Assembly (NCBI RefSeq): GCF_001292625.1 | Contig: NZ_LAJH01000009.1 | Span: 682,001-746,000 of the forward strand | From: Shimia sp. SK013 | Lineage (GTDB): Bacteria; Pseudomonadota; Alphaproteobacteria; Rhodobacterales; Rhodobacteraceae | Direction: 5' to 3' | DNA: 64,000 nucleotides | Shown: positions 21,408 to 39,069 of the stretch, one piece after another | Position numbering within the stretch: position 1 is the stretch's first letter | How the letters are laid out: each line of letters begins with the position of its first letter | Notes under the pieces: generated by a model | Seen by the model: only the letters and a program-made list of their open reading frames with translations | Databases searched by the model: none | What the model was told of the DNA's origin: nothing | Position numbers and translations under genes: made by a program

Positions 21408-22754
21408 TCAGATTGCAGCAAAGCCCGCCTCAAGCGCACCGAGGATTGTGGCAGCGTCCGCCTCAGACAAGACCAACGGCGGCGACAGGATCAGGTTTGG
21501 TCCCGATACCCGCACCATCGCGCCGCTTTGATAAGCAACGTCTTGCACTTTGGATGCCGTTGCCGCGTCAATTGGCGTTTTGGTGGCACGGTCACTGACC
21601 ATTTCAATGGCAGTCATCAAGCCATAGCCACCGCGCACATCACCGATAATATCGTATTTCTCCATCAACGCCTTACAGCCATCAAACAGCTGGGTCCCAC
21701 GCGCTGCCGCATTGTCGATCACGTTCAGCCGCTTGGTTTCCGCCAAACAGGCCAATGCAGCCGCCGCCCCAACAGGATGCCCCGAATAGGTGTAGCCGTG
21801 ACCGATCTTGGCCGCGGGGTTGCCTTCAAAAACCTCGATCATACGATCACCAAGCATCACAGCCCCAAAAGGGAAGTACCCGTTGGTGATTGCCTTGGCT
21901 GTTGCCATCATATCGGGTTTAACGCCCCAAAGCCGCGCGCCTGACCACGCACCCGTGCGCCCATATGCCGTGATCACCTCATCCGTGATCAACAAGATGC
22001 CGTTGCGGTTGCAGATTGCCTGCACTGCAGGGGCAAATGATGGATGCGGCGGGATAACACCACCAGCGCCCAAGATCGGCTCCATGATCATAGCGGCGAT
22101 TGTGTTGGCGCCTTGAAACGCAATCTCGTCTTCCAATGCCTGAATGCACAGTTGCGCGAGTTTTTCAGGATCAGATTCGTTGAACGGATTGCGGTAGGAA
22201 TAGGGTGCGGGAATGTGGAAACAGCCGGGCAGTAGCGGTTCATAGGCGTTGCGGAAATTTGCATTTCCGTTGACTGACGCCCCGCCGATATGGGTGCCAT
22301 GATACCCCTTCTTGAGACTCAGGAACTTCGTCCGCCCCGCCTCCCCGCGCAATTTGTGATACTGGCGCGCAAGCCGCAGCGAAGTCTCGACGCTGTCCGA
22401 CCCACCTGACGTAAAAAATGCCCGGTGCAGCCCGTCCTCGGCAAAGAATTCACCAAGCTCAAACGACAGCTCGATTGCCGCGTCATTGGATGTGCCGCGA
22501 AATGTCGAATAGTACGGCAACTTGTCGAGTTGCGCCGCAATTGCGTCCTTGACCGGTTGACACGAATAGCCAAGATTGACGTTCCACAACCCCCCGACCC
22601 CATCAACCACGCGGTGGCCATCAATGTCGGTAATCGACACGCCGTCCGCCTCGGTGATGATCGTTGGCGGCTGATCCAAACTGTCTTGGGGCGAAGTCAT
22701 AGGATGCCACATCAAGCGGCCGTTGTTTTCCTTCAGGAAGTTTGAATCTTTCAT
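21408..22754 (-). CDS. Class III (omega) aminotransferase
   Basis: 448 aa, fold-type I PLP enzyme. Motifs: TSGGSDSVETSL for phosphate binding, GYHGTHIGGAS, LLITDEVITAYGRTG with the cofactor Asp, and the Schiff-base Lys in TAKAITNGYFP. The family usually moves an amino group from an omega-amine or beta-amino acid to pyruvate or 2-oxoglutarate, producing an aldehyde. The ATG at 22754 overlaps the stop of the IclR gene (ATGA), so the two form an operon. Within this island it could deaminate an aromatic amine such as dopamine or tyramine; that is inference. Confidence 0.9.
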   Translation of the reverse strand: MKDSNFLKENNGRLMWHPMTSPQDSLDQPPTIITEADGVSITDIDGHRVVDGVGGLWNVNLGYSCQPVKDAIAAQLDKLPYYSTFRGTSNDAAIELSFELGEFFAEDGLHRAFFTSGGSDSVETSLRLARQYHKLRGEAGRTKFLSLKKGYHGTHIGGASVNGNANFRNAYEPLLPGCFHIPAPYSYRNPFNESDPEKLAQLCIQALEDEIAFQGANTIAAMIMEPILGAGGVIPPHPSFAPAVQAICNRNGILLITDEVITAYGRTGAWSGARLWGVKPDMMATAKAITNGYFPFGAVMLGDRMIEVFEGNPAAKIGHGYTYSGHPVGAAAALACLAETKRLNVIDNAAARGTQLFDGCKALMEKYDIIGDVRGGYGLMTAIEMVSDRATKTPIDAATASKVQDVAYQSGAMVRVSGPNLILSPPLVLSEADAATILGALEAGFAAI

Positions 22755-23560
22755 TGCGTGGAATCCAATGCATTTGGCGTTGTGTCGGACTTGGCCCATA
22801 CGGCCTCGATCTGGGTGGGGATTTTTCCGCCCCAATTGCGGGTGATCTCGCGTGCAGCGGTGATCAATTCGGATTTAATAGTGTGTTCCAGCTCCGCAGT
22901 ATGGCGAGAGGCCACGCTGGCGACGGCCACGGCTCCAGCAAGATGACCGGTGTGATCAAAAATTGGCGCAGCAATGCCTTGGATCTCACTCTCGTAGCTT
23001 TGATTGGCGCAGGCAAACCCAGTCTCTCGTGCGGTCTCTATCAAGGCGGCCAGATCAGAGTGCGTCGTCGGCGTGCTCGCTGTGAACCCTTCAAGGTTCG
23101 CGACTGCCGCCTCCAAGAGGCTTGGATCTCCAAAGGCCACCGAACACTGACCCGACGCTGTGGCATGCAATGGGAATATGCTGATGTCGATGACTGCCCG
23201 CGTTCCGTGTCGGGGGGATTCGCAATCGCACAAGCCATAGAGAGTCGTGCCCGAAAGGACTGTGACATGGGCCGTTTCCCCCGTCGCATCCGCGAGCGCC
23301 GCCAAAGCCGACTTGGCCGAGGCCTTACGAGGAACCGTCGCTTCTCTGATCTGCGCCAACTGCATCACCGCCGGCCCCAAACGATAGTGTTTTGTCAGCG
23401 GATTCTGTTCAACAAACCCTGCAGTTTCAAGCGCCTGCAGGTGGCGGTAGGTCGTCGCCTTGTCCCGCCCTGCGATACGACACAACTGCGTCAGCCCGAT
23501 TTCCGGACGCGCAGTCGAAAAGTAGGACAGCAACTTCAGAGCTTTGGTAGCTGAGGACAT
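22751..23560 (-). CDS. IclR-family transcriptional regulator
   Basis: 269 aa. N-terminal winged helix (LGLTQLCRIAG-like segment, KATTYRHLQALETAGFVEQ) and a C-terminal IclR effector domain (about 85-255). The ATG at 23560 begins the conserved N-terminus; longer frames start only at TTG. It diverges from tctC and probably controls that promoter through the palindrome at 23640-23656, and its own operon with the aminotransferase. Confidence 0.9.
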   Translation of the reverse strand: MSSATKALKLLSYFSTARPEIGLTQLCRIAGRDKATTYRHLQALETAGFVEQNPLTKHYRLGPAVMQLAQIREATVPRKASAKSALAALADATGETAHVTVLSGTTLYGLCDCESPRHGTRAVIDISIFPLHATASGQCSVAFGDPSLLEAAVANLEGFTASTPTTHSDLAALIETARETGFACANQSYESEIQGIAAPIFDHTGHLAGAVAVASVASRHTAELEHTIKSELITAAREITRNWGGKIPTQIEAVWAKSDTTPNALDSTQ

Positions 23561-23639
23561 GTGGTTGGTCTCATTTTGGCTGGTCACAAAAAAAGTTTGA
23601 CACAAGAAAATTAACAAGGCAACCTTTTATCGAAACAAC

Positions 23640-23656
23640 GGTTCAATATATGAACC
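23640..23656. promoter_or_regulatory. Palindromic operator candidate in the iclR-tctC gap
   Basis: GGTTCA-ATATA-TGAACC, perfect 6-bp arms with a 5-base spacer, 17 bp upstream of the tctC ATG. The size and symmetry suit an IclR dimer. A TTGACA -35-like hexamer lies at 23597-23602, so a regulator bound here would sit near the transcription start. Confidence 0.6.
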
Positions 23657-23673
23657 ACACCAGGGAGAATGAA

Positions 23674-24618
23674 ATGTCTAAGATTTTTAAATCTGTGACC
23701 GCGATGGCTCTGGCCATGACTGCCGTCACGGGAACAGCGCAGGCTGAATACCCGGAAAAGCCGGTTGAGTTTGTTGTGCCGTGGCCTCCCGGTGATCTCG
23801 AGGACGTGTTGACACGCATGATCGCCGAAGACTTTTCTGCCGCCTACGACGTCCCGACCGCTGTTGTGAACAAGCCCGGCGGCGGTGGCGGCCCGTTCCC
23901 CGGCGCGATCGAAGTGGCGAATGCACCGGCGGATGGTTACACGATTGGCTCTTTCATCATCGCCATTCCTGTTGTTGGCCCTCAGATCGGCATTCCTGAG
24001 TTGAAACCCGACCCTTTCGTGCCACTTGGAAATTTCCTGACTTATCCGTTTGTAATCGCCACAAGCGGAAACGCGCCTTATGGAACCATGCAAGAACTCG
24101 CCGCGCATGCCTCCGACAACGACGTTGTTCTGGGCCACTTCGGGGCCCCGCTGGTGCCCACACAAGTCACTATGGGCTTGGCAAAAAGCATGGGCTTTTC
24201 CTACTCGGCAGACGCGGCTTTTGACGCCCTGGACTGCAACACGCTGGCCTCCGGCGATGTGGATGTGATCAACACCACTCTGCAACTGATCCTGCCCTGC
24301 CTTGACGACGTGAAGGTTCTGGCCTCCATCGGCAATGAACGTATCGGCCTGACACCAGACACGCCGACGGTCTCTGAACTGGCGCCCGATTTGGACGTCG
24401 CGCTTTGGAACGGTCTGTTCGTTCACGCGGACACCCCCCAAGATGTACAGGACAAAATCATCGCCGTTGCCGAAAAGACGATGATGTCTGAGCGCGCTCA
24501 GAAACTGGCCGCCGAAACCGGCGCGCTGGTCTACTGGCAGCCCGCTTCCGAGGTGGTCACGCAAATTGAAAAAGATATCGAAACCATGGCTCGCATCGAA
24601 GGCATGCTTGCCAACTAA
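23674..24618 (+). CDS. Tripartite tricarboxylate transporter substrate-binding protein (TctC family)
   Basis: 314 aa. Signal peptide ending near AQA, then a mature Bug/TctC domain beginning EYPEKPVEFVVPWPPGDLED. The usual PG(G)xxD signature is represented by PPGDLED near the start and GGGGGPFPGA further on. It binds a solute, commonly a carboxylate, in the periplasm and delivers it to TctBA. GGGAGA precedes the ATG. First gene of a plus-strand operon with tctB, tctA, an aldehyde dehydrogenase and a UPF0261 gene. Confidence 0.92.
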   Translation: MSKIFKSVTAMALAMTAVTGTAQAEYPEKPVEFVVPWPPGDLEDVLTRMIAEDFSAAYDVPTAVVNKPGGGGGPFPGAIEVANAPADGYTIGSFIIAIPVVGPQIGIPELKPDPFVPLGNFLTYPFVIATSGNAPYGTMQELAAHASDNDVVLGHFGAPLVPTQVTMGLAKSMGFSYSADAAFDALDCNTLASGDVDVINTTLQLILPCLDDVKVLASIGNERIGLTPDTPTVSELAPDLDVALWNGLFVHADTPQDVQDKIIAVAEKTMMSERAQKLAAETGALVYWQPASEVVTQIEKDIETMARIEGMLAN

Positions 24619-24631
24619 GATACCTCCCATT

Positions 24632-24660
24632 CGGCCGGACAGCCCAGCGTTGCCCGGCCG
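24632..24660 (+). terminator. Stem-loop between tctC and tctB
   Basis: CGGCCGG and CCGGCCG arms (7 bp, perfect) flank a 15-base loop, with no T tract after it. Such intergenic hairpins after binding-protein genes usually lower downstream expression or protect the upstream mRNA end rather than ending transcription fully. Confidence 0.5.
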
Positions 24661-24687
24661 TTTGACCTTAGTGAAACGGAAAATGCC

Positions 24688-25227
24688 ATGTCGCGCGTGA
24701 AAACACTTCAATCGCTGTTTAAACGATACCGCAGACCCGGTGACATCGTGTTTGCATGGTTCGCCTTGATTGTCTCTGTTCTGCTGCTGTCGCAGATCGC
24801 CGATCAAACCGTGTGGCGCAACGGCGGAAAACTGTTTGCCCAACCCCGTTTCTGGCCCGCAGTGTCTCTTGGTGGCATGGCGCTTTTTGCGGCCTTTCAT
24901 CTGCTGGGCTCTGCTCTATCCGAACGCCTCGAAGGACGCTGGCAGGAGGTCTGGCTGTGGATCACCGCGCTGGAATACGCCGCTTGGTTCATCGCCTATG
25001 CCGCTGCCGTCCCGTATGCGGGCTACCTGCCCACGACACTGCTGTTCGCCCTCGCGCTTGCTCTGCGCGTTGGCTATCGCAAGACTTCCACGCTCCTTGC
25101 AGCTGCGGTTTCCGCCGTCATCATCGTGTTGCTTTTCAAAACCTTCTTGAAGGTCAACCTGCCCTCGGGCCTGATCTATGAAAGCCTGCCGGACGGGCTG
25201 CGCCAGATCATGCTGACCTACTTCTGA
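24688..25227 (+). CDS. Tripartite tricarboxylate transporter small membrane subunit (TctB family)
   Basis: 179 aa with four predicted transmembrane helices (about 20-38, 55-72, 85-110 and 130-155), matching the TctB fold. The end of helix 4 carries VIIVLLFKTFLKVNLP, typical of the family. It pairs with TctA in the inner membrane. It lies 12 bp before the tctA start. Confidence 0.9.
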   Translation: MSRVKTLQSLFKRYRRPGDIVFAWFALIVSVLLLSQIADQTVWRNGGKLFAQPRFWPAVSLGGMALFAAFHLLGSALSERLEGRWQEVWLWITALEYAAWFIAYAAAVPYAGYLPTTLLFALALALRVGYRKTSTLLAAAVSAVIIVLLFKTFLKVNLPSGLIYESLPDGLRQIMLTYF

Positions 25228-25239
25228 TCGGAGCCTCTG

Positions 25240-26757
25240 TTGGAAAACCTTCTTGCCGGACTGGAAATGCTCGCCCGCTGGGATGTGGTATTTGCCCTAC
25301 TTGTCGGGTCAATCGGCGGCGTCATCATTGGGGCCATCCCCGGCGTCGGGCCAGCCGTGGCCATCGCCATCCTGTTGCCCGCAACGTTCTCACTGGATCC
25401 GATTGTCGGGCTGACGATGCTGCTCGGCATCTACGGGTCGTCGATGTATGGCGGTGCCATTCCCGCAGTTCTGATCAACACGCCCGGAACAGCCGTGAAT
25501 GCGCTAACGTCTTACGACGGCTACCCCATGACCCAGCGCGGCGAGGCGCACCGAGCGGTGTCGCTGTCCTATTCCGCGTCGTTCTGGGGGGGCATCTTTG
25601 GCATTCTGTGTTTGATCCTGCTGTCACCAGTTTTGGCGATGATTGCCCCGATGTTCGGATCACGCGAAATATTTCTCGCAGCCCTGCTTGGCATCATCCT
25701 CGTGATCCTCGCCCACCGAGGTCAGATATTCGCCGCCGGTCTTTTGGCGATGTTCGGTATCTTTTTGCAAACCGTCGGACTGGATGCGGTGACATACACA
25801 CAACGCTTCACCTTCGGCCAATCCTTCCTATCGTCAGGCGTAAACCTGATTGTTGTCGTCTTGGGCCTCTTCGCCCTCAGCCAAGCCTTCTTCCTTCTCT
25901 CCGCCCCCGACAGCAGCCCCGATGCCAAACCCGTGACCGGTCGCATGGGCGCAGGGATCAAGGAGCTGCTGAAACACAAACGTGTCGCCACAGTTGCCTC
26001 AGGCTTTGGTGTGATCCTTGGCATGATCCCCGGCACCGGCGAGTTTACCGCCCAGTTCATGTCTTACACATACGCCCAGAAAACCTCGAAAGACCCCGAC
26101 AGCTTTGGCAAGGGCTCCCCCGAAGGTCTGATTGCGTCCGAGGCCGCCAACAACGCGGTACCCGCCGCCGCGATGATCCCCCTTCTGGCGCTCGGCATTC
26201 CGGGCGAAGCGCTGACGGCCATGATGTTGTCTGTGTTCTATGTGCACAACGTCATCCCTGGCCCACAACTCTTTCAAAACAACATTGATCTGGTCTACGG
26301 TCTCTACTTTGCGCTGATTGCGCTCAACGTGATCGTTATGGTCTTTCTGTTGTTCGCCACAAATCTGCTGACCAAGATCATCCGCGTCCCCACCCGCTTT
26401 TTGGGCGTGTTGATCCTGCTGTTGTCCTTTGTTGGCGTTTATTCCCTGCGCAACTCGCTGACCGACTGTATGATTGCTGCCGGCTTCGGTGTTCTTGGCC
26501 TCATCCTGAAACGCTTGAACCTGCCAATTGTGCCGATCATTCTGGGCATGGTTCTCGGCGGCATCATGGAGGTCAAACTCCGCTCCTCGCTGCCGCGCCT
26601 CAAGACACCACTAGACATGATCGACCGGCCGATTGCCGCGATCATCTTCGGCATAATTGTTCTGGTTCTCGCACTGCACGTGCGCACTCTGATCAAGGAA
26701 TGGCGCGCGCATCAGCCCGAAGAAGACCACGACTTGCACGACAGCCAAACAAGGTAA
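25240..26757 (+). CDS. Tripartite tricarboxylate transporter large permease (TctA family)
   Basis: 505 aa, about 11-12 membrane helices. Family signatures are GAIPGVGPAV near the N-terminus and GMIPGTGEFTAQFMSY in the second half, plus EAANNAVPAAAMIPLLALGIPG. The start is TTG with GGAG 7 bases upstream; no closer ATG fits the conserved N-terminus MENLLAGLEMLAR. Substrate unknown; genetic context suggests an aromatic or dicarboxylic acid or an amine-derived acid. Confidence 0.92.
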   Translation: MENLLAGLEMLARWDVVFALLVGSIGGVIIGAIPGVGPAVAIAILLPATFSLDPIVGLTMLLGIYGSSMYGGAIPAVLINTPGTAVNALTSYDGYPMTQRGEAHRAVSLSYSASFWGGIFGILCLILLSPVLAMIAPMFGSREIFLAALLGIILVILAHRGQIFAAGLLAMFGIFLQTVGLDAVTYTQRFTFGQSFLSSGVNLIVVVLGLFALSQAFFLLSAPDSSPDAKPVTGRMGAGIKELLKHKRVATVASGFGVILGMIPGTGEFTAQFMSYTYAQKTSKDPDSFGKGSPEGLIASEAANNAVPAAAMIPLLALGIPGEALTAMMLSVFYVHNVIPGPQLFQNNIDLVYGLYFALIALNVIVMVFLLFATNLLTKIIRVPTRFLGVLILLLSFVGVYSLRNSLTDCMIAAGFGVLGLILKRLNLPIVPIILGMVLGGIMEVKLRSSLPRLKTPLDMIDRPIAAIIFGIIVLVLALHVRTLIKEWRAHQPEEDHDLHDSQTR

Positions 26758-26763
26758 TTCCCG

Positions 26764-28248
26764 ATGGATCAGTCAAAAATCGACGCCCTGCGCGCCCTGC
26801 CCGTCCCCGCCTTTCATCATCTTATCGACGGCAAACATGTGCCTGCCTCCGGTGGTGGCACATTGGATATCATCTCGCCCATCGATGGTCAGGCGCTGAC
26901 CACGACCGCTGCCGGTACCGCAGCGGATATGGAAGCCGCCATCACTTCGGCCCGCGCCGCGTTTGAGGATGGCCGCTGGTCCAACCAACCGCCCGCCGCC
27001 CGCAAGAAAGTGCTGTTGAAGTGGGCCGAATTGATTGAGGCAAACGCGCTGGAACTGGCCGTTCTGGGTGTTCGCGACAACGGTACAGAGATCGGCATGG
27101 CGCTTAAAGCTGAACCGGGATCCGCCGCCGCAACCATCCGCTACTATGCTGAAGCTCTGGATAAGATCTATGGCGAAATCGCCCCGACGGCTGGCGACAT
27201 ACTCGGCTTGATCCACAAAGAACCGGTGGGTGTTGTCGGCGCGATCATCCCTTGGAACTTCCCGATGATGATCGGCGCATGGAAACTGGGGCCGGCTCTG
27301 GCGGTGGGCAACTCCGTCGTTCTGAAACCTTCAGAAACCGCATCGCTCTCGCTGATGCGCATGGCCGATCTGGCGCTAGAGGCTGGCTTGCCGCCCGGCG
27401 TGCTCAACGCGGTTACCGGCGAAGGCCGTATTGTCGGCGAAACGCTTGGCTTGTCGATGGATGTGGACGTTTTGGTCTTTACCGGATCCGGCGGCACAGG
27501 GCGGCGTCTGATGGACTACGCTGCGCGTTCCAACATGAAGCGGGTTTATCTGGAACTTGGCGGCAAATCCCCCAACATCGTCTTTGCCGATGCACCCAAT
27601 CTGGACGAAGCTGCCAAGGTCGCAGCCGCCGGTATTTTTCGCAATTCCGGTCAGGTCTGCGTGGCTGGCTCACGGCTTCTTATCGAGGCCCCAATACACG
27701 ATGATTTTGTCGCCGCCGTGACCAAGGCGACCGAGGCAATGCGTGTCGGCGATCCGCTCAGGATCGACACCCATATTGGAGCCGTGAATTCCGAAGTCCA
27801 ACTGACTGCCAACCTAGGTTTCGTGGATACAGCCACAGCCGAAAGCGGCCAAATTGTCACCGGTGGACATCGCATTTTGCAAGAAACTGGCGGCTACTAC
27901 ATGGCGCCCACAATTATCACAGGCGTCACCCGCGATGCCACGTTGGCGCAAAAAGAGGTGTTCGGTCCTGTCTTGGGCGTCACTCCGTTTGACACCGATG
28001 ACGAAGCTATCTCTCTCGCCAACTCGACAGTTTACGGCCTCGCCGGCGCTGCTTGGACTGCAAACTTAAGCCGCGCTCATCGCATGGTCAAATCCGTGCG
28101 CACGGGCGTCATGCACATCAACACCTACGGCGGCGCGGATGGCACAGTGCCGCTCGGAGGCGTCGGTCAATCCGGAAACGGCTCTGACAAGTCGCTGCAT
28201 GCGATTGAAAAATATGTGAATCTCAAAACTGCTTGGATCAAACTGTAA
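26764..28248 (+). CDS. NAD(P)-dependent aldehyde dehydrogenase
   Basis: 494 aa. Catalytic Cys in NSGQVCVAGS, general-base Glu in ELGGKSPNIV, cofactor motif FTGSGGTGRRLM, and the PWNFPMMIG segment. Overall it most resembles gamma-glutamyl-gamma-aminobutyraldehyde (PuuC) and phenylacetaldehyde-type dehydrogenases. In this island it could oxidise the aldehyde made by the class III aminotransferase. It follows tctA by 6 bp and precedes the UPF0261 gene by 9 bp, so it is part of the transporter operon. Confidence 0.88.
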   Translation: MDQSKIDALRALPVPAFHHLIDGKHVPASGGGTLDIISPIDGQALTTTAAGTAADMEAAITSARAAFEDGRWSNQPPAARKKVLLKWAELIEANALELAVLGVRDNGTEIGMALKAEPGSAAATIRYYAEALDKIYGEIAPTAGDILGLIHKEPVGVVGAIIPWNFPMMIGAWKLGPALAVGNSVVLKPSETASLSLMRMADLALEAGLPPGVLNAVTGEGRIVGETLGLSMDVDVLVFTGSGGTGRRLMDYAARSNMKRVYLELGGKSPNIVFADAPNLDEAAKVAAAGIFRNSGQVCVAGSRLLIEAPIHDDFVAAVTKATEAMRVGDPLRIDTHIGAVNSEVQLTANLGFVDTATAESGQIVTGGHRILQETGGYYMAPTIITGVTRDATLAQKEVFGPVLGVTPFDTDDEAISLANSTVYGLAGAAWTANLSRAHRMVKSVRTGVMHINTYGGADGTVPLGGVGQSGNGSDKSLHAIEKYVNLKTAWIKL

Positions 28249-28257
28249 GGGACAGCC

Positions 28258-29490
28258 ATGACCGACAAGACTATTCTGGTGATCGGCACCTACGACACCA
28301 AAGACGACGAACTGGGTTTCCTTGCTGATGTGATCCGTAATCAAGGTGGCAATGTCGTCACCATGGACGTCTCCGTTTTGGGCGACCCGTCCAAGCCGAC
28401 GGATTATTCCAAACACGACGTCGCCACAGAAGGCGGCAGCACCATCCAAGCGGCAATTGACCGCGGCGACGAGAACCATGCGATGCAAATCATGGCCAAG
28501 GGCGCCAGCCTTCTGGCGGCACGTCTGCACTCCGAAGGTGCCTTTGACGGTATGATTGTACTTGGCGGCACGATGGGCACGGACCTCGCGCTTGATGTGG
28601 CAACAGCGCTGCCGCTTGGGGTGCCGAAATACATCGTTTCAACCGTGTCCTACTCCCCTTTGATTCCGGCAGAACGACTGGCGGCGGACACCCAGATGAT
28701 CCTGTGGGCGGGGGGCCTTTACGGCCTGAATTCAGTTTGCAAAGCATCGCTGTCGCAGGCGGCGGGCGCCGTTCTGGGCGCGGCCCGGGCGGTGCAATTG
28801 CCTGACCCGGACAAACCGCTGATCGGCATGACATCGCTTGGGACTTCTGCGCTGAAATATGTCATTCCGCTCATCCCTGCGCTTGAGAAGCGCGGTTTTG
28901 AAGTCGCCGTGTTCCATGCCACCGGCATGGGAGGACGCGCCTTTGAAAGCCTTGCCGGCCAAGGCGCCTTTGCCTGCGTCTTTGACTTTTGCACCCAAGA
29001 GCTGGGCAACCATGTCAACGGTTCCAACATTTCTGCCGGTCCGGACCGACTGACCAATGCCGGCGCAACGGGCACGCCGCAAATCGTCGCCCCGGGATGC
29101 TATGATTTGGTGGACATCGTCGGCTGGCAACCCCTGCCCGAGGTTTGGGACAACCACCTGACACATGACCACAACCGCTTGCTGACGTCTGTTGTTCTAA
29201 AAGCGGAAGAAACCAGAAAAGTTGCAGACGTGCACTCCGAGCACCTCGCACAAGCCAAAGGACCAGTGGCGTTGATCCTGCCGGAACACGGCCTTGGCGA
29301 ATGGGATCGCGAGGGGGCGGATTTGCACAATCCCGACGGCCTCGCGACGTTCTTGGCTGAGATTGAGGAAACCCTGCCCGAGACCGTGCAAGCCCACCGC
29401 ATCCCTTGCCACATAAACGACGCCGAATTCGCCGACAAAGCGCTGGAGATTTTCGACGGCTGGTGTGCCGACGGCACCATCTCGGTTTAG
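28258..29490 (+). CDS. UPF0261 (Tm-1-like ATP-binding domain) protein
   Basis: 410 aa. The family pattern is clear: ILVIGTYDTKDDEL at the N-terminus, GMIVLGGTMGTDLA, GMTSLGTSALKY and FHATGMGGRAFE. This is the N-terminal half of the plant Tm-1 resistance protein and of bacterial UPF0261 proteins, which bind ATP; their metabolic role is not established. UPF0261 genes are often paired with a TIM-barrel phosphoenolpyruvate-hydrolase-like gene; none is present here. Its TAG overlaps the convergent hpaR stop by 4 bp. Confidence 0.9.
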   Translation: MTDKTILVIGTYDTKDDELGFLADVIRNQGGNVVTMDVSVLGDPSKPTDYSKHDVATEGGSTIQAAIDRGDENHAMQIMAKGASLLAARLHSEGAFDGMIVLGGTMGTDLALDVATALPLGVPKYIVSTVSYSPLIPAERLAADTQMILWAGGLYGLNSVCKASLSQAAGAVLGAARAVQLPDPDKPLIGMTSLGTSALKYVIPLIPALEKRGFEVAVFHATGMGGRAFESLAGQGAFACVFDFCTQELGNHVNGSNISAGPDRLTNAGATGTPQIVAPGCYDLVDIVGWQPLPEVWDNHLTHDHNRLLTSVVLKAEETRKVADVHSEHLAQAKGPVALILPEHGLGEWDREGADLHNPDGLATFLAEIEETLPETVQAHRIPCHINDAEFADKALEIFDGWCADGTISV

Positions 29491-29924: not shown

Positions 29925-29961
29925 GTTTGCCTCAAGAATCTGGTGCCGCTCAAATGCAGTG

Positions 29962-29981
29962 CAACACAGGTGTTGACAACA
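29962..29981. promoter_or_regulatory. Overlapping inverted repeats with a TTGACA hexamer (hpaR-hpaF)
   Basis: CAACAC-AG-GTGTTG (29962-29975) overlaps a second repeat, TGTTG-A-CAACA (29971-29981). A perfect -35 hexamer TTGACA lies at 29973-29978 facing hpaF. A MarR-type dimer here would block RNA polymerase. The -10 is unclear. Confidence 0.5.
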
Positions 29982-30010: not shown

Positions 30011-30022
30011 TTAACATGTTAA
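30011..30022. promoter_or_regulatory. Palindrome TTAACATGTTAA just before hpaF
   Basis: A perfect 12-bp palindrome ending immediately before the GGA of the hpaF Shine-Dalgarno. A second HpaR operator, or a roadblock site, is plausible. It is AT-rich, so chance occurrence cannot be excluded. Confidence 0.45.
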
Positions 30023-31929: not shown

Positions 31930-32783
31930 TGGGAGAGATCGTTCTCGCCGCGAAATGCACGCACGTTCCCACCATGCTGATGTCCGAACAGGACGGCCCG
32001 GTGAAAGGCAAACGCCAAGCCGCCATCGACGGACACTTTGATATCGCCAACCGCGCCAAGGCACTCGGGGCAGATACCGTCATCATCTGCGACACCCATT
32101 GGGTCATCAACGCAGGTTTTCACATCAACGCGAACAACCGCTTTGAGGGGATGTTCACCTCCAACGAATTTCCGCAGTTTATTCAGAATATGCCTTACGA
32201 ATACCAAGGCAATCCTGAACTCGGCGACGCAATTGCCAAAGAGGCCTCTGATCGTGGGACCTATACGCTGGCGCACCATCTGGACTCGCTAGAATTGGAA
32301 TATGGCACGCTGGTTCCAATGCGGTTCATGTCGCGCGCCCACGATATGAAGGTCGTATCAGTCGCCGCGTGGTGCACAGTGCATGCCCACGACGAAAGCC
32401 GCATCGTCGGCGAAGCCATCCGCGCCGCGGTTGAGGCGTCCGACAGCAAAGTGCTTTTGGTGGCCTCAGGATCGCTGTCACACAAAATCTGGCCGAACAA
32501 GGACTATGCCGCCAACAACGGCACCTTCACCATCAGTTCCGAATTCAACCGCCAGATGGATCTGCACGTGTTGGATATGTGGCAGCGCGGCGATCACGCG
32601 GCATTCCTCAAGATGTTGCCGGACTATGCCGAGTTCTGCTGCGGCGAAGGCTCTATGCACGACACCGCCATGCTTTATGGTGCCCTTGGCTGGGACAGCT
32701 ATGATGCGAAATGCGAGGTCGTGACCGAGTATTTCCCGTCGTCCGGCACCGGCCAGACCAACGTCGTCTTTCCCGTTCAATAG
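31929..32783 (+). CDS. hpaD: 3,4-dihydroxyphenylacetate 2,3-dioxygenase, class III (LigB-type)
   Basis: 284 aa, closely resembling enterobacterial HpaD/HpcB in length and motifs: AAKCTHVPTM with a metal His, ICDTHWVIN, EYGTLVPMRF with the metal Glu, ASGSLSHKIW and GEGSMHDTAM. It opens homoprotocatechuate between C2 and C3 using a divalent metal, normally Fe(II), and O2. The very next gene encodes a structurally unrelated enzyme predicted to do the same reaction. Confidence 0.93.
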   Translation: MGEIVLAAKCTHVPTMLMSEQDGPVKGKRQAAIDGHFDIANRAKALGADTVIICDTHWVINAGFHINANNRFEGMFTSNEFPQFIQNMPYEYQGNPELGDAIAKEASDRGTYTLAHHLDSLELEYGTLVPMRFMSRAHDMKVVSVAAWCTVHAHDESRIVGEAIRAAVEASDSKVLLVASGSLSHKIWPNKDYAANNGTFTISSEFNRQMDLHVLDMWQRGDHAAFLKMLPDYAEFCCGEGSMHDTAMLYGALGWDSYDAKCEVVTEYFPSSGTGQTNVVFPVQ

Positions 32784-32792
32784 GAGGCCCTG

Positions 32793-33776
32793 ATGCCCGT
32801 CCCCGCACCCAACCTCTATCCCGACTTCAACACAATCCGCCTGAGTCACGTGTGCCTGAATGTCCAAGACCTCGCCGCGTCGCGCAAGTTCTACACTGAA
32901 ATTCTCGGCCTTCAGGTCACAAATGAGGATGACACCCACATCTATCTGCGCGCCATGGAAGAACGCGGGCATCACTGTGTGATCCTGCAAAAATCGGACC
33001 AACCAGGCACCGTCGAAGTCATGGGGTTCAAAACCTTTGACGAGGATGATCTGGACCGTGCCGAGGCATATTTCAAAGCCAAAGGCCGCCCAACGCAGTG
33101 GGTCAAACGCGCCTTTCAAGGCAGAACGTTGCTGACCGCCGACAACATGGGCATCCCGCTGGAGTTCTATCACAAAATGGACCGGCTCCCGCCGATCCAC
33201 CAGAATTACGCGCTTTATCGCGGGGTAAAACCGCTACGGATCGACCACTTCAACTGCTTCAGCCACGACGTGGATGCTTCCGTGGAGTTTTATTCCGACT
33301 TCGGCTTCCGCGTGACGGAATACACCGAAGATGAGGACAGCAAAAAACTTTGGGCTGCTTGGCTACACCGCAAAGGCGGCGTGCATGACATGGCGTTCAC
33401 CAACGGCACTGGCCCGCGATTGCACCACGTGGCCTTCTGGGTACCGACACCGCTGAACATCATCGACCTGCTCGATTTGATGTCCACAACTGGCTACGTC
33501 GACAACATCGAACGCGGCCCCGGACGACACGGCATTTCAAATGCCTTCTTCCTCTATATCCTTGACCCTGATGGCCACCGCATCGAAATCTACTGTTCTG
33601 ACTACCAAACCGTGGATTCCGATCACGAGCCGATCAAATGGGATCTTCAGGACCCGCAACGCCAAACCCTATGGGGGGCCGCAGCACCAGAAAGCTGGTT
33701 CAAACACGGCACAACCTTTGTCGGCGTCGACACCAAAAATTCAACAATCAAAGCAAGTCCGATCATCGCACCATGA
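32793..33776 (+). CDS. Extradiol dioxygenase, type I VOC fold (MndD/HPCD-like homoprotocatechuate 2,3-dioxygenase)
   Basis: 327 aa, two VOC modules (about 15-130 and 145-270). It follows the pattern of Brevibacterium HPCD and Arthrobacter MndD: metal ligands His152 (RIDHFN), His212 (RLHHVAF) and Glu265 (HRIEIY), second-sphere His198 (GGVHDMAF), and the RGPGRHG loop. All key residues are present, so it should be active. The C-terminus is about 35 residues shorter than HPCD. TAGGAGG precedes the ATG, and its stop overlaps the next start (ATGA). Confidence 0.88.
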   Translation: MPVPAPNLYPDFNTIRLSHVCLNVQDLAASRKFYTEILGLQVTNEDDTHIYLRAMEERGHHCVILQKSDQPGTVEVMGFKTFDEDDLDRAEAYFKAKGRPTQWVKRAFQGRTLLTADNMGIPLEFYHKMDRLPPIHQNYALYRGVKPLRIDHFNCFSHDVDASVEFYSDFGFRVTEYTEDEDSKKLWAAWLHRKGGVHDMAFTNGTGPRLHHVAFWVPTPLNIIDLLDLMSTTGYVDNIERGPGRHGISNAFFLYILDPDGHRIEIYCSDYQTVDSDHEPIKWDLQDPQRQTLWGAAAPESWFKHGTTFVGVDTKNSTIKASPIIAP

Positions 33777-35236
33777 CACTCACTCTTAAAACCCCCGCCC
33801 TCCTGCGCGAAGCCGCCTTTGTTGGTGGCCGCTGGATCACCGCCGACGGAACCGGCATCGCTGTCACCAACCCCGCCACCGGCGATGTTTTGGGACATGT
33901 CCCAGACTTAGGCGCGGCAGAGACACAAGAGGCCGTAAAGGCCGCGCAGATCGCGCAATCCGCTTGGGCCAAACGCACCGCCAAAGAGCGCAGCAACGTT
34001 CTGCGCCGTTGGTTTGACCTGATGATGGACAACCAAGCCGATCTGGCCGCGATCCTGACCGCTGAACAGGGCAAACCCCTGACCGAATCCAGCGGCGAAA
34101 TCGCCTATGGCGCGTCCTTTATCGAATGGTTCTCCGAGGAAGCCCGCCGCGCCTATGGCGACATCACCCCGTCCAGCGCGCCGGACAAACGTATTCTGTG
34201 CATAAAACAGCCCATCGGCGTCACCGCCGCGATCACGCCGTGGAATTTTCCAAACGCGATGATCACGCGCAAGGCCGCGCCGGCTTTTGCCGCCGGCTGT
34301 GCCATGGTGCTCAAACCTTCCGAACTCACGCCATTTTCCGCCATTGCACTGGCCGTTCTTGCGCAAGAGGCAGGCCTGCCCGACGGCCTGTTCTCGGTGA
34401 TCACCGGCGATGCCGCGACTATCGGCGGTGTGCTGACAAGCAGCCCAGTCGTGCGCAAACTAACATTCACTGGCTCAACCGGCGTCGGTGCCAAGCTGTA
34501 TGAACAATGCGCGCCAACCATCAAAAAGCTGGGCTTGGAGCTGGGCGGCAACGCGCCGTTCATCGTCTTTGACGACGCGGATCTGGACGCCGCCGTCGAG
34601 GGCGCGGTCCTGTCAAAATTCCGCAACAACGGCCAGACCTGCGTCTGCGCCAACCGCATCTACGTGCAGGCAGGCGTGTATGACACCTTTGCCGAAAAAC
34701 TGGCCGCCAAAATCGCGACGCTTCCAGTTGGCAACGGCGCGGATGACGGCGTGATCTTTGGCCCCCTGATCAATGACGCGGCTGTAACAAAGGTCAGCAG
34801 CCACATCGCGGACGCTGTCGCCAAAGGCGCGGCCGTCACGCTTGGCGGCAACCCGCATGAACAGGGCGGCACATTTTTTGAGCCAACCATTCTTACCGGC
34901 GTAACCTCGGACATGGCCGTGGCCACCGAAGAAACCTTTGGCCCTGTGGCACCCCTCTTTAAGTTCGACACTGAAGCCGAAGCAATTGATGCCGCAAACG
35001 CCACCGAATTCGGTCTCGCATCTTACTTCTTCAGCCGCGACATCTCGCGAGTCTGGCGCGTGTCCGAAGCACTTGAATACGGCATGGTTGGCGTCAACAC
35101 CGGCCACGTCTCGACCGCAGAGGCGCCATTTGGCGGCGTCAAATCCTCGGGTCTGGGGCGCGAAGGTGCGCGCCAAGGCCTCGATGACTTTATGGAACTT
35201 AAATACATCTGCATGGGTGGCATCGATGGGGCATAA
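33773..35236 (+). CDS. gabD: Succinate-semialdehyde dehydrogenase (GabD-like)
   Basis: 487 aa ALDH of the GabD branch: FVGGRW near the start, TPWNFPNAMITRK, FTGSTGVGAKLYEQCAPT, ELGGNAPFIVFDDADLD and NNGQTCVCANR with the catalytic Cys. It would oxidise the succinic semialdehyde released by HpaI to succinate, closing the pathway into the TCA cycle. Embedded in the hpa operon by an ATGA overlap upstream; the next gene starts 3 bp later. The start at 33773 is set by that overlap. Confidence 0.92.
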   Translation: MTLTLKTPALLREAAFVGGRWITADGTGIAVTNPATGDVLGHVPDLGAAETQEAVKAAQIAQSAWAKRTAKERSNVLRRWFDLMMDNQADLAAILTAEQGKPLTESSGEIAYGASFIEWFSEEARRAYGDITPSSAPDKRILCIKQPIGVTAAITPWNFPNAMITRKAAPAFAAGCAMVLKPSELTPFSAIALAVLAQEAGLPDGLFSVITGDAATIGGVLTSSPVVRKLTFTGSTGVGAKLYEQCAPTIKKLGLELGGNAPFIVFDDADLDAAVEGAVLSKFRNNGQTCVCANRIYVQAGVYDTFAEKLAAKIATLPVGNGADDGVIFGPLINDAAVTKVSSHIADAVAKGAAVTLGGNPHEQGGTFFEPTILTGVTSDMAVATEETFGPVAPLFKFDTEAEAIDAANATEFGLASYFFSRDISRVWRVSEALEYGMVGVNTGHVSTAEAPFGGVKSSGLGREGARQGLDDFMELKYICMGGIDGA

Positions 35237-35239
35237 CAC

Positions 35240-36637
35240 ATGAACTGGGACGACTTCGCCGGATGGAGCAAACACATCGCCGACTGGGGCGCGCAGTATC
35301 ACAAGACGCTGGGCGACCGGCCCGTGCGCGCTCAAACAAAACCGGGCGACATCGCAGCGCAACTGCCCGCGTCACCGCCCGATCAGCCCGAAGACATGGC
35401 CGCCATTTTGCAGGACTTTGAGACCATCGTCATGCCCGGGATGACTCATTGGCAGCACCCGCGTTTCTTTGCGTATTTTCCCGCCAATGCAGCCCCGCCC
35501 TCGATGCTGGCGGAGCAGCTGGTCAACACCGTCGCCGCGCAATGTATGTTGTGGCAAACCTCCCCGGCCGCGACCGAGGTCGAGGGGCTGATGGTGGATT
35601 GGATGCGGCAGGCTTTGGGGCTTGCGGACCACTTCACCGGCGTCATTCAGGACAGCGCGTCCTCCGCCACCCTTTCTGCCGTGCTGACCATGCGCGAACG
35701 CGCCACCGGCTTCACCGGCAACCGCGACGGCCTGTCCGGCAAAGGCCACATGCGCGTCTACTGCTCTGATCAGGTGCATTCCTCAATTGATCGCGCCTGC
35801 TGGGTTTCCGGCATTGGTCAGGAAAATCTGGTGAAAATTCCGGGTGCCGGCCCACGCCACGGCATGGACGCCAACGCGCTGGATGCTGCGATCAAGGCTG
35901 ATATCGCCGCCGGCCACACACCTGCCGGGATCATCGCCATCACCGGCGGCACCGGTGTTGGCGGCTGTGACGACCTGCCATCGATTATCAAGGTCGCAAA
36001 GGCTCACGATCTTTACACACACCTTGATGCTGCATGGGCAGGCTCCGCCATGATTTGCCCCGAAATTCGCGAGGAATTCTGGCAAGACGTCGACGCCTTC
36101 GACAGCATCGTGTTCAACCCGCATAAATGGCTCGGTGCGCAGTTCGATTGCTCTATTCAGTTCTTGCGTGACGCGACACCGCAACTCAACACGCTCAAGA
36201 TCGAACCGGAATACCTCAAAACCACCGGCGCCGCCGTCACCAACTATTCGGAATGGACAATCCCTCTGGGTCGCCGCTTCCGCGCTCTGAAACTGTGGTT
36301 CCTGATCCGCTCCTACGGGCTGACAGGGCTGCAATCCCGCATCCGCAACCACGTCGCATGGGCGCATGAACTTTGCGAAGAAATTCGCCAGATCGACGGA
36401 TTTGAAATCACAACAGACCCGGTCCTCAGCCTGTTTTCCTTCCGCTGCCCCGGCGATGACGCGATGCAGCAGCAACTGGTGGACACGATCAACGATGATG
36501 GGCGGATCTATTTGACCCAAGGCGCCTTTCAGGGGCGCAAAATCATCCGGGTTCAGGTTGGCCAATTTGACACAACACGCGACGACGTGATGGCTGTCGC
36601 CTCCGTCACGCAAGACATTTGGGAGAGCATCAAGTGA
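35240..36637 (+). CDS. Aromatic-L-amino-acid decarboxylase (PLP group II)
   Basis: 465 aa, same length class as animal and plant DOPA decarboxylases. Motifs: HPRFFAYFPA, TSPAATEVEGLMVDWM, His180 in DQVHSSIDRA (stacks on PLP), Asp263 in HLDAAWAGSA and the Schiff-base Lys296 in NPHKW. His180 and the Tyr in EPEYLK favour decarboxylation over the aldehyde-synthase variants. Predicted to turn DOPA, tyrosine or a related amino acid into the amine. Its place inside a homoprotocatechuate operon suggests it feeds that pathway. The stop overlaps the hpaG GTG start. Confidence 0.88.
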   Translation: MNWDDFAGWSKHIADWGAQYHKTLGDRPVRAQTKPGDIAAQLPASPPDQPEDMAAILQDFETIVMPGMTHWQHPRFFAYFPANAAPPSMLAEQLVNTVAAQCMLWQTSPAATEVEGLMVDWMRQALGLADHFTGVIQDSASSATLSAVLTMRERATGFTGNRDGLSGKGHMRVYCSDQVHSSIDRACWVSGIGQENLVKIPGAGPRHGMDANALDAAIKADIAAGHTPAGIIAITGGTGVGGCDDLPSIIKVAKAHDLYTHLDAAWAGSAMICPEIREEFWQDVDAFDSIVFNPHKWLGAQFDCSIQFLRDATPQLNTLKIEPEYLKTTGAAVTNYSEWTIPLGRRFRALKLWFLIRSYGLTGLQSRIRNHVAWAHELCEEIRQIDGFEITTDPVLSLFSFRCPGDDAMQQQLVDTINDDGRIYLTQGAFQGRKIIRVQVGQFDTTRDDVMAVASVTQDIWESIK

Positions 36638-37488
36638 ACTTCGCAACCTACTCCAGCGCAAATGAAACCTTCTACGGAGCAGCGACTGACAATGGCATGA
36701 TTGCCCTCAACGACGCCTTCCCCCAGTGGCCCACTTTGCTGGATGCCTTGCAGGCTGGCGGCCTGTCAGCACTTACCGAAGCCGCCGGAGACAAAGCCGT
36801 CACACACACCGATTTTCACTACGAAATGGTGCTGCCCAACGCGCCGCGTATCCTGTGCGTCGGTGTGAACTTTCCCGACCGCAACGCCGAATACAAAGAC
36901 GGCAGCGAGCAGCCGAAATTTATGTCGCTCTTCCCGCGCTTTGCATCGGGTTTTACAGGCCACAACCGCCCGCTGATCCGCCCCCCCGAAAGCCCGCAAC
37001 TGGATTACGAAGGCGAGGTCGCAGTTGTCATCGGCACGGGTGGACGCCGCATTGCACAGGCTGACGCTTATGACCACATCGCCGCGCTGACGCTTTGTAA
37101 CGAAGGCACCATTCGCGACTGGGTCCGCCACGCAAAGTTCAACGTGACCCAGGGCAAGAACTGGGACAACTCGGGCTCCATCGGCCCGTGGCTTGTGCCC
37201 TTCACCGATGCCGCCCAACTTGACGACGCCCGCATCCTCACCCGCGTGAACGGAGAAGTCCGCCAAGACGATGTTCTGTCGCGCATGATGCACCCGATCC
37301 GGCGCGAGATCGAATACATCTCGACTTTCATGACGCTGCACCCCGGCGACATCATTGTCACCGGCACCCCCACAGGGTCTGGCGCGCGCCTTGACCCGCC
37401 ACGGTTCCTCAAACCCGGCGATGTCGTCGAGGTTGAGGTGAACGGTATCGGCACCCTGCGCAACACGGTGGAGGACGAAGTCCAATGA
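36634..37488 (+). CDS. hpaG: Fumarylacetoacetase-family protein (HpaG-type isomerase/decarboxylase)
   Basis: 284 aa, single FAH domain: ILCVGVNFPDRNAEY, LDYEGEVAVVIG (metal Glu residues), DWVRHAKFNVTQGKNWDNSG, and GDIIVTGTPTGSG. In the pathway HpaG decarboxylates 5-oxopent-3-ene-1,2,5-tricarboxylate and isomerises the product. E. coli HpaG is a double-domain protein of about 430 aa, so this is half length; no second FAH gene is seen. GTG start at 36634 overlaps the preceding TGA and has GGGAGA upstream. Confidence 0.85.
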   Translation: MNFATYSSANETFYGAATDNGMIALNDAFPQWPTLLDALQAGGLSALTEAAGDKAVTHTDFHYEMVLPNAPRILCVGVNFPDRNAEYKDGSEQPKFMSLFPRFASGFTGHNRPLIRPPESPQLDYEGEVAVVIGTGGRRIAQADAYDHIAALTLCNEGTIRDWVRHAKFNVTQGKNWDNSGSIGPWLVPFTDAAQLDDARILTRVNGEVRQDDVLSRMMHPIRREIEYISTFMTLHPGDIIVTGTPTGSGARLDPPRFLKPGDVVEVEVNGIGTLRNTVEDEVQ

Positions 37489-38285
37489 CCCCCGAAGATC
37501 ACGCCCGCGCCGCTGATGATTTGCTTCGTGCCGAGGCGACTGCCGAACAGATCGGCCTGCTCACCAAGCGTCACCCCGACATGGGTATGGACGACGCCTA
37601 CGCCATCCAGAACGCGATCTACCGCTCCAAACTGGCACAAGGACAACCTGTGGTCGGCTGGAAGATCGGCCTGACGTCCAAGGCCATGCAATACGCGCTC
37701 AACATCGACATCCCAGACAGCGGCATCCTGTTTGACGACATGGTGTTTTCCCACGGCGCAACTGTCCCCAAGGGCCGGTTCATTCAGCCCCGCATCGAGG
37801 CCGAAATCGCCTTTGTGATGAAGTCCTCCATCGGAGGTTCCGACGTCAACCGTGATGACGTTCTCGCGGCAACCGACTATGTCGCGCCCTCGATCGAAAT
37901 CCTCGACACACGCATCGTGCGCATGGACGCCGAAACCGGCAAGACGCGAACTGTGTATGACACCATCAGCGACAACGCTGCCAACGCCGGTATCGTGCTT
38001 GGTGCCGAACGCCACGCGGTCGATGCCTTCGATTTACGTTGGGTTGGGGCCATCACCTCTCGCAACGGCGAAGTCGAAGAAACCGGACTGGGCGCAGGTG
38101 TGCTGAACGATCCCGTCGAAAGCGTGGTCTGGCTCGCCCGGCGCATGGCGCAATACGGCCAAACCATAGACCCCGGTCAGATCATTCTGTCCGGCAGCTT
38201 TATCCGTCCGATTGAATGCCCGTCGGGTGCCAGTATCCACGCTGATTTCGGATCGTTTGGCACCGTCGACATCGCCTTTACCTAA
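37485..38285 (+). CDS. hpaH: 2-oxo-hept-4-ene-1,7-dioate hydratase
   Basis: 266 aa of the FAH-related hydratase family. Motifs: VVGWKIGLTSKAMQ, PRIEAEIAFVM (metal-binding Glu residues), YVAPSIEILDTRI and SGSFIRPIECPSG. It adds water to give 4-hydroxy-2-oxoheptanedioate, the HpaI substrate. The start overlaps the hpaG stop (ATGA), and hpaI follows after 10 bp. Confidence 0.94.
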   Translation: MTPEDHARAADDLLRAEATAEQIGLLTKRHPDMGMDDAYAIQNAIYRSKLAQGQPVVGWKIGLTSKAMQYALNIDIPDSGILFDDMVFSHGATVPKGRFIQPRIEAEIAFVMKSSIGGSDVNRDDVLAATDYVAPSIEILDTRIVRMDAETGKTRTVYDTISDNAANAGIVLGAERHAVDAFDLRWVGAITSRNGEVEETGLGAGVLNDPVESVVWLARRMAQYGQTIDPGQIILSGSFIRPIECPSGASIHADFGSFGTVDIAFT

Positions 38286-38295
38286 AGGACACCCC

Positions 38296-39069
38296 ATGCC
38301 TGCACCGCACAATCCGTTCAAACACGCGCTTTCACAGGGTCACCTGCAACTCGGCTGTTGGCTTGGCCTTGCCGATCCATACATCGCCGAAATCAGCGCA
38401 GGTGCGGGGTTTGACTGGCTGCTGATCGACGGCGAACACGCACCCAACGATCTGCGCTCTATCACCGCGCAACTTCAAGTGATCGCAGGGCGCGACGCGC
38501 ACGCCGTTGTCCGCCCGCCCATCGGCGAGGCATGGGTTATTAAACAATTGCTCGATGCCGGTGCCCAATCGCTTCTGATCCCGATGGTCGAAAGCGGTGC
38601 GCAAGCACAAGATCTGGTCGACGCGGTGACCTATCCGCCGCACGGCATTCGCGGCGTGGGATCAGCCTTGGCCCGCGCCTCCGATTTCTCCGCAATTGGC
38701 GACTACCTGACAACCGCCCGTCAGGAAATTTGCTTGCTCGCCCAAGTCGAAAATCAGAAAAGTATCAACGCGCTGGATGACATACTCGCCGTGGACGGAC
38801 TTGATGGCGTGTTCATCGGCCCCTCGGATCTGGCGGCCGATATGGGTTTCATCGGGCAGCCGGGGCAAGCCGAGGTCAAGACCGCTGTTTTAGACGCCAC
38901 AAAGCGCATCGTTGCCGCTGGCAAAGCTGCTGGCATCCTCACCTTGGACAAAGATTTGCAACAAGCCTGTCGCAAGCTCGGCGCAACCTTCATCGCCACA
39001 GAGATCGACGTGACGCTGTTCGCTCGCAGTATGCGCACAGCCTCCGCCGCCGCAAAATCGCTCATCTAG
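38296..39069 (+). CDS. hpaI: 4-hydroxy-2-oxoheptanedioate aldolase
   Basis: 257 aa, class II pyruvate aldolase. Motifs: LGCWLGLADPYIAE, DWLLIDGEHAPND (catalytic His), LIPMVESGAQA, the metal Glu in LAQVENQKS and GPSDLAADMG. It splits the substrate into pyruvate and succinic semialdehyde, which the GabD-like enzyme then oxidises. AAAGGA precedes the ATG at 38296. Last gene of the operon. Confidence 0.95.
   Translation: MPAPHNPFKHALSQGHLQLGCWLGLADPYIAEISAGAGFDWLLIDGEHAPNDLRSITAQLQVIAGRDAHAVVRPPIGEAWVIKQLLDAGAQSLLIPMVESGAQAQDLVDAVTYPPHGIRGVGSALARASDFSAIGDYLTTARQEICLLAQVENQKSINALDDILAVDGLDGVFIGPSDLAADMGFIGQPGQAEVKTAVLDATKRIVAAGKAAGILTLDKDLQQACRKLGATFIATEIDVTLFARSMRTASAAAKSLI

Follow-up and report, generated by a model that had tools for sequence, protein, structure and literature searches.

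The dopamine and tyramine catabolon of Pseudomonas putida U reportedly uses the hpa meta-cleavage pathway. In the title of Arcos et al. 2010 (cited in PMC10606097 and PMC12718150), it is presented as a 3,4-dihydroxyphenylacetic acid catabolon for tyramine and dopamine. The hpa/hpc operons of Escherichia coli W and Acinetobacter baumannii TH are described in PMC12718150, which calls the latter the sole reported hpa operon with ssadh, a succinate-semialdehyde dehydrogenase (SSADH) gene. For the repressor HpaR, PMC7180172 gives footprinted sites of the form TTAA-N4-TTAA in Yersinia and describes those of E. coli W as similar. In this study, a stretch of 64,000 nt from Shimia sp. SK013 (the window, to which all positions refer) was analysed, in which an island at 21408-39069 carries an hpa operon with a gene for an aromatic-L-amino-acid decarboxylase (AADC) inside it. 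We judge it fairly probable that this is a regulon for the catabolism of aromatic amino acids and amines that carry a catechol, with L-DOPA and dopamine degraded via 3,4-dihydroxyphenylacetate under repression by HpaR.

In the proposed route, the decarboxylase would convert L-DOPA to dopamine. From dopamine, 3,4-dihydroxyphenylacetate would be formed by a class III aminotransferase together with an aldehyde dehydrogenase, both probably those encoded just upstream of the operon. HpaD would then open the ring, with HpaE, HpaF, HpaG, HpaH, HpaI and GabD leading to pyruvate and succinate. HpaR, we infer, would bind a TTAAC-NN-GTTAA site just before hpaF and repress the operon until released by a compound of the pathway.

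The likeness to the P. putida U catabolon lies, as far as a title can tell, in the degradation of aromatic biogenic amines via 3,4-dihydroxyphenylacetate. Compared with the Pseudomonas enzymes as reported, the Shimia island differs in having AADC in the hpa operon, a transaminase as the likely deaminating enzyme and no HpaB. With the operons of E. coli W and A. baumannii TH it shares the 5-carboxymethyl-2-hydroxymuconate semialdehyde (CHMS) dehydrogenase, dioxygenase, isomerase, decarboxylase, hydratase and aldolase steps, and with the latter also the SSADH gene; it differs from them by the absence of HpaB, the AADC gene inside the operon, two unrelated HpaD proteins and one FAH protein in place of two domains. 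Beyond A. baumannii TH, the single case in that account, ssadh also lies in the hpa operons of Phaeobacter porticola, Rhizobium leguminosarum and the Shimia window (33773-35236). The MarR-type HpaR and the TTAA-N4-TTAA operator are as in Yersinia pseudotuberculosis and E. coli W (PMC7180172), whereas the regulon predicted here reaches a DOPA-type decarboxylase, even where this lies away from the hpa genes.

The hpa operon and its decarboxylase

Profile searches found every gene named in a first-pass annotation of the window, which had proposed a possibly complete route from DOPA and dopamine to succinate. The genes hpaF-hpaE-hpaD(LigB)-hpaD(VOC)-gabD-AADC-hpaG-hpaH-hpaI lie on the + strand at 30032-39069, with AADC flanked by the gabD-like and hpaG-like genes. 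The intergenic gaps are −19 to +10 nt, and the operon would therefore be read as one transcript. Bit scores and curated cut-offs are given with each feature:

29487-29924, − strand: HpaR, MarR-type repressor, divergent from the operon (TIGR02337, 130.2 bits, cut-off 121.2)
30011-30022, no strand: probable HpaR operator TTAACATGTTAA, laid out as the footprinted TTAA-N4-TTAA sites (PMC7180172)
30032-30421, + strand: hpaF, 5-carboxymethyl-2-hydroxymuconate isomerase (Pfam CHMI, PF02962, 125.9 bits, over the cut-off of 26.5; NCBIfam PRK15031, 69.7 bits, under the cut-off of 215)
30418-31929, + strand: hpaE, CHMS dehydrogenase (TIGR02299, 759.9 bits, cut-off 638)
31929-32783, + strand: hpaD, LigB-type 3,4-dihydroxyphenylacetate 2,3-dioxygenase (TIGR02298, HpaD_Fe, 446.6 bits, cut-off 316; nearest PDB entry 8iq8)
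32793-33776, + strand: second hpaD, VOC-type homoprotocatechuate 2,3-dioxygenase (TIGR02295, 415.3 bits, cut-off 321; nearest PDB entry 1f1x)
33773-35236, + strand: gabD-like SSADH (TIGR01780, 705.3 bits, cut-off 646)
35240-36637, + strand: AADC, DOPA-type by its nearest relatives (PF00282, 305 bits; nearest PDB entry 7xin, a DOPA decarboxylase, E 4.7e-108)
36634-37488, + strand: hpaG-like single FAH domain, of the 5-oxopent-3-ene-1,2,5-tricarboxylate (OPET) decarboxylase type (TIGR02303, 151 bits, under the cut-off of 276)
37485-38285, + strand: hpaH, 2-oxo-hept-4-ene-1,7-dioate hydratase (TIGR02312, 373.5 bits, cut-off 351.5)
38296-39069, + strand: hpaI, 4-hydroxy-2-oxoheptanedioate aldolase (TIGR02311, 346.9 bits, top family, slightly under the cut-off of 368.8)

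Homologs of HpaD, HpaE, HpaF, HpaH and HpaI, which define the homoprotocatechuate pathway, were all present. HpaG is usually made up of two FAH domains or two FAH proteins. The operon encodes a single FAH protein, so that of the two HpaG functions just one can be clearly assigned to it; the gene set proposed earlier stood, and the word 'complete' was slightly too strong on this account and because the substrate is deduced. The Phaeobacter, Ruegeria and R. leguminosarum islands likewise have one annotated FAH protein. The two hpaD products, encoded as a tandem pair of unrelated 3,4-dihydroxyphenylacetate dioxygenases (31929-33776), each exceeded the cut-off of their own equivalog model and fall into separate Pfam families, LigB and glyoxalase. 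The VOC enzyme has the stretches DHFN, VHD, LHHVAF and RIEIY in common with the solved homoprotocatechuate 2,3-dioxygenase 1f1x, which we take to have roles in metal binding and catalysis, and the LigB enzyme aligned with 8iq8 across almost its full length.

After 7xin, a further close solved relative of AADC was the DOPA decarboxylase 1js3 (E 5.7e-93). Aligned with the pig and human DOPA decarboxylases, AADC has the pyridoxal-phosphate lysine in NPHKW, the histidine of DQxHSS and the mobile-loop tyrosine (EPEYLK), residues that presumably distinguish decarboxylases from aldehyde synthases. With the PF00282 fold, the cofactor lysine and these active-site residues in place, AADC looks like a working decarboxylase; in the profile search, none of the NCBIfam decarboxylase models was over its cut-off. 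An aldehyde synthase converting DOPA directly to the aldehyde was set aside because the histidine and tyrosine positions are of the decarboxylase type. The residues alone do not discriminate between DOPA and tyrosine, and the exact substrate, L-DOPA or tyrosine or another aromatic amino acid, is beyond what sequence can decide. An AADC transposon mutant of Phaeobacter inhibens is listed in an auxin study (PMC5148602), in a table where its entries are Yes/Yes.

Co-occurrence of AADC with hpa genes

Among 60 genomes (the source and its relatives), an AADC ortholog was found in 17/17 genomes with either HpaD versus 6/43 without HpaD. Within the genus, the corresponding counts were 13/13 with a dioxygenase and 4/12 without. 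In a survey of 296 family genomes, taken as one set and searched at the same settings for AADC, HpaD and HpaB, AADC was present in 84 of the 97 genomes with VOC-type HpaD and in 60 of the 199 without (Fisher p 5e-21, relatedness ignored). The 97 include two genomes with 44% matches only (G083, G343) and one with a broken copy (G212); excluding them, AADC was present in 83/94.

The gene neighbourhoods point the same way. Linked pairs were counted by eye from the match rows: in 38 of the 84 family genomes with both genes, AADC followed the VOC hpaD on the same strand; the gap was at most 201 nt in 35 of them and about 1.47 kb in three, the window included. AADC was placed elsewhere in the remaining 46. 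For the best 80 of at least 444 confirmed AADC matches (the named loci), counts were made at fixed identity limits, with hpa genes sought within 7 kb and companion genes over the whole locus. At least three of five hpa functions were found on the same strand in 36 loci, one or two in 7 and none in 37. The dioxygenases within 7 kb in the 36 AADC-hpa loci were of both kinds in 5, VOC only in 29 and LigB only in 2. The first-pass annotation had called the combination of decarboxylase and hpa genes unusual, and this did not hold: hpaD is followed by AADC within about 1.5 kb in 38/296 family genomes and the combination is annotated in Phaeobacter, Ruegeria and Rhizobium, so that it is common in Rhodobacterales and present in rhizobia. 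The gene order in R. leguminosarum 9B is hpaR-hpaF-hpaE-hpaD-AADC-gabD-FAH-hpaH-hpaI. In Phaeobacter porticola P97 the island is on plasmid pP97_b, typed as mobilizable by PLSDB, and in Ruegeria sp. THAF33 it is on a megaplasmid.

The 37 named loci that lack hpa genes within 7 kb (contig ends cut some of them short) would fit an operon that served mainly 3,4-dihydroxyphenylacetate or other catechols imported as such, with AADC riding along and supplying amines for another purpose. The neighbouring TctABC transporter, of a carboxylate-uptake type, also fits this explanation. We consider it very unlikely, as both the co-occurrence of the genes and the HpaR operators found before AADC genes placed apart (below) argue for a shared purpose.

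Predicted HpaR operator before hpa and AADC genes

The spacer before hpaF contains the palindrome TTAAC-NN-GTTAA (TTAACATGTTAA, 30011-30022), so that the window has both an HpaR gene and a TTAA-N4-TTAA site at the operon promoter. Loci chosen for AADC or HpaD were scanned for this operator. There were 49 exact matches in 2.63 Mb of loci, or 47 in 2.55 Mb once four overlapping loci were left out, and five dinucleotide shuffles of the 2.55 Mb gave 0, 0, 0, 1 and 0. All 49 sites (overlapping loci included) precede hpaF, hpaE or AADC, and none lies inside a mapped gene.

Sites with at most one mismatch were then counted in the 250 bp upstream of each gene, leaving out the four overlapping loci (L088-L091) and stretches under 150 bp. 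Such a site was found before hpaF in 40/54 cases, before AADC outside an hpa operon in 20/59 (21/60 before removal of L151, a duplicate of L040) and before AADC inside the operon in 1/49. There was none before hpaH (0/56), hpaI (0/45), the aminotransferase gene (0/11), the IclR gene (0/14), the aldehyde dehydrogenase gene (0/20), the glutamine-synthetase-like gene (0/13), urtD (0/10) or hmgA (0/6), and few before the UPF0261 gene (1/24), tctC (1/16) and the P450 gene (4/15). For 12 genomes in which AADC and hpa genes lie apart, seven had an exact site before AADC together with a site of at most two mismatches before an hpa gene.

Based on the operator before stand-alone AADC genes, many relatives probably have the decarboxylase in their HpaR regulon. 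Chance would hardly place the site of one regulator repeatedly before a gene at a distance, and this is the best evidence that the decarboxylase serves the 3,4-dihydroxyphenylacetate pathway. Some relatives appear to keep AADC under the HpaR switch even when it is distant, which suggests that DOPA or dopamine is used as food. With its position in the operon, its recurrence in several genera and the genome-wide co-occurrence, the shared operator upholds the earlier proposal of a functional tie between the decarboxylase and the hpa genes.

The ring hydroxylase HpaB and a possible tyrosine or tyramine input

The first-pass annotation had seen no HpaBC in the island and had proposed that the rest of the genome be searched for it and for amine oxidases. 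PF03241 (HpaB) gave 0 matches across the whole source genome, given as 99.99% complete, and the control set matched in 4/14 genomes. There were also 0 matches in the other 24 genomes of the genus in the 60-genome set, and HpaB was found in 0 of that set's 17 HpaD genomes. The operon thus lacks the HpaB hydroxylase of a 4-hydroxyphenylacetate degradation operon, and the earlier observation stood genome-wide. In the 296 family genomes PF03241 was matched in 34, namely 19/97 with HpaD versus 15/199 without, leaving 78 of the 97 HpaD genomes without HpaB. HpaB goes with HpaD somewhat, and AADC far more often.

With six of the eight HpaB loci as queries, HpaB-like genes were found near the AADC-hpa genes in 7 of 86 loci. 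Four of these (L107, L108, L156, L168) showed about 50% identity to the HpaB of four family members; those of L112, L113 and L117 were more distant at about 26-33%, with L113 also 73% identical to one. The operon is therefore compatible with HpaB, and in such relatives tyramine or tyrosine could be the input. A related possibility for the source genome is that AADC makes tyramine and that a ring hydroxylase other than HpaB, encoded elsewhere, makes the catechol before HpaD acts. Besides the four loci with an HpaB-like gene near the same operon, the position of AADC near a homogentisate operon, for tyrosine breakdown, in 7 of 22 fetched relative loci is in keeping with this, as is a module of P450, glutamine-synthetase-like and amidotransferase genes found beside the hpa or AADC genes of some relatives and accompanied, in four loci, by near-HpaR sites. 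We regard this explanation as unlikely, since HpaB occurs in neither the source genome nor the 17 HpaD genomes of the 60 (hydroxylases of the Acinetobacter, P450 and flavin monooxygenase types were not searched for) and the synthetase of the P450 module has just a 31% relative in the source genome. Catechol substrates remain the simplest input, as originally proposed.

Among the same 22 loci, AADC lay in an hpa operon in 4, an HpaR-like gene was present in 17 and a UrtB-like ABC transporter gene in 9. In L039 (1549-10416), HpaR and AADC lie beside a homogentisate operon (hmgA, fahA, maiA), and the HpaR-like protein passes TIGR02337; L040 has PaaZ nearby in place of such an operon. In one genome (G029; L046, L088) both arrangements occur together: homogentisate genes, HpaR, an hpa operon with AADC inside, and then the ABC transporter.

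The P450 module was typed in L081 (11415-15484), where GntR, class I amidotransferase, P450 and glutamine-synthetase-like genes adjoin hpa or AADC. Similar modules were found in L082, L086, L157, L170 and L179 by a tblastn survey of companion genes (pieces under 80 aa excluded, at least 30% identity shown), and HpaR-like sites lie at the P450/amidotransferase divide in L157, L170, L179 and L182. The module possibly serves gamma-glutamyl-amine oxidation. As a route in the source genome it was rejected on the 31% identity of the synthetase relative; the P450 was not searched for there.

The amine step and the upstream block

Upstream of the hpa operon, the class III aminotransferase and aldehyde dehydrogenase of the earlier annotation were both confirmed, within the following block:

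21408-22754, − strand: class III (omega) aminotransferase, PRK07481 family, candidate dopamine/amine:pyruvate transaminase (NF005683, 717.8 bits, cut-off 575; nearest PDB entry 5lh9, an omega transaminase)
22751-23560, − strand: IclR-family regulator of the block (PcaR/PcaU-like, under cut-offs)
23650-26757, + strand: tripartite tricarboxylate transporter, TctC 23650-24618 (PF03401), TctB 24688-25227 (PF07331) and TctA 25240-26757 (PF01970)
26764-28248, + strand: aldehyde dehydrogenase, PuuC/KauB-like, candidate 3,4-dihydroxyphenylacetaldehyde dehydrogenase (top NCBIfam PuuC, 527 bits, under the cut-off of 850; nearest PDB entries 5iuu and 6b4r, KauB)
28258-29490, + strand: UPF0261/Tm-1-like protein, recurrent partner of the block (PF06792, PF23189; NF002676, 644 bits, cut-off 556)

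The search of the source genome for amine oxidases covered the copper and flavin types. A copper amine oxidase was rejected as the amine step, with 0 matches to PF01179 in the whole genome. For the flavin type (PF01593) there were five matches; the two strongest, those that were typed, look like HpnE or carotenoid (phytoene) desaturases and are under cut-offs, and the other three were not typed.

An ortholog of the aminotransferase was present in 15 of the 32 named AADC-hpa loci having at least 9 kb upstream and at least 7 kb downstream, and it adjoins hpa in three further genus members (G008, G013, G023), in which AADC lies elsewhere. The UPF0261 gene accompanies those for the aminotransferases in Phaeobacter, Ruegeria, Shinella and Rhizobium and is found in 11 of the 32 loci; it may take part in amine breakdown. 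A degenerate TTAACAAGGCAA element lies at about 23611-23622, some 40 bp upstream of tctC, and is identical in L103, L113, L116 and L128.

The assignment of this block to the same pathway was upheld in part: hpa genes adjoin it repeatedly, but it encodes an IclR regulator of its own and lacks a clear HpaR site. It may instead be an unrelated amine pathway under IclR control (aminotransferase, Tct, aldehyde dehydrogenase and UPF0261), with another transaminase acting on dopamine. The lack of near-exact HpaR sites at its aminotransferase, IclR and aldehyde dehydrogenase genes fits such an arrangement, and a class III aminotransferase query matches the genome at eight places. In several genera, however, all or part of the block adjoins hpa, with a different transporter in R. 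leguminosarum, and in Shinella HZN7 the amine genes flank AADC, though no hpa gene is annotated within 12 kb. We hold an unrelated block to be doubtful yet a real possibility, and it is compatible with the catecholamine regulon favoured here.

The islands of Ruegeria and R. leguminosarum further contain a kinase-like gene and code for a second class III protein, that of Ruegeria being nearest to the phospho-lyases 5g4i and 6tor. Such phospho-lyases act on amino-alcohol phosphates, and beta-hydroxylated amines are therefore a possible further substrate. In the source genome, a kinase-like gene (37-40% identical to the Ruegeria and Rhizobium copies) overlaps a class III phospho-lyase homolog (57-63%) on contig C21 (L204, 7783-10001). 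As this is another contig, the pair was rejected as part of the island.

Discussion

Several observations weigh against the proposed catecholamine regulon. L-DOPA as the substrate is deduced from sequence, and AADCs of this family can accept tyrosine, tryptophan or phenylalanine besides DOPA. There are two HpaG steps and one FAH domain in the operon. The operator was not seen before AADC in 5 of the 12 genomes in which AADC and hpa lie apart, four of these five having an hpa site; 39 of the 59 AADC genes outside hpa operons are without an operator of at most one mismatch, and the close syntenic relatives L037 and L038 have just three-mismatch sites before hpaF. To these are added the separate regulator of the aminotransferase block, the named AADC loci without nearby hpa genes and the HpaB-like genes near some operons. 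Lastly, 13 of the 97 HpaD genomes are without AADC, and 10 of these are without both AADC and HpaB, so other inputs exist. Of the interpretation made in the first-pass annotation, the tie between AADC and the hpa genes, the absence of HpaB and the catechol as simplest input held; the rarity did not, and the upstream block did so in part.

Among the titles and abstract openings listed from the open-licence literature, no description of a DOPA/dopamine decarboxylase-hpa operon was found. The dopamine/tyramine catabolon itself is known; within that literature, the apparently new elements are AADC in the operon, the likely transamination, the absence of HpaB and the predicted HpaR control of AADC in Alphaproteobacteria.

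More tentatively, and with rather more doubt than confidence, a wider picture can be drawn, in which an HpaR-controlled catecholamine regulon common to marine and legume-root Alphaproteobacteria would draw L-DOPA and dopamine from animal, algal and plant sources, with HpaB missing in many lineages. In some of them (Ruegeria, rhizobia) it would be extended by the kinase and phospho-lyase pair, which could strip the beta-hydroxyl and the amine from noradrenaline- or octopamine-like compounds to give the same aldehyde.

If the proposed regulon is correct, it would offer a possible explanation of how hpa genes serve without HpaB in a large marine family. AADC together with the HpaR palindrome would be a sequence signature for finding such a route. 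Marine and root-associated bacteria would then also have a specific route for feeding on DOPA and dopamine, one that is widespread and open to test.

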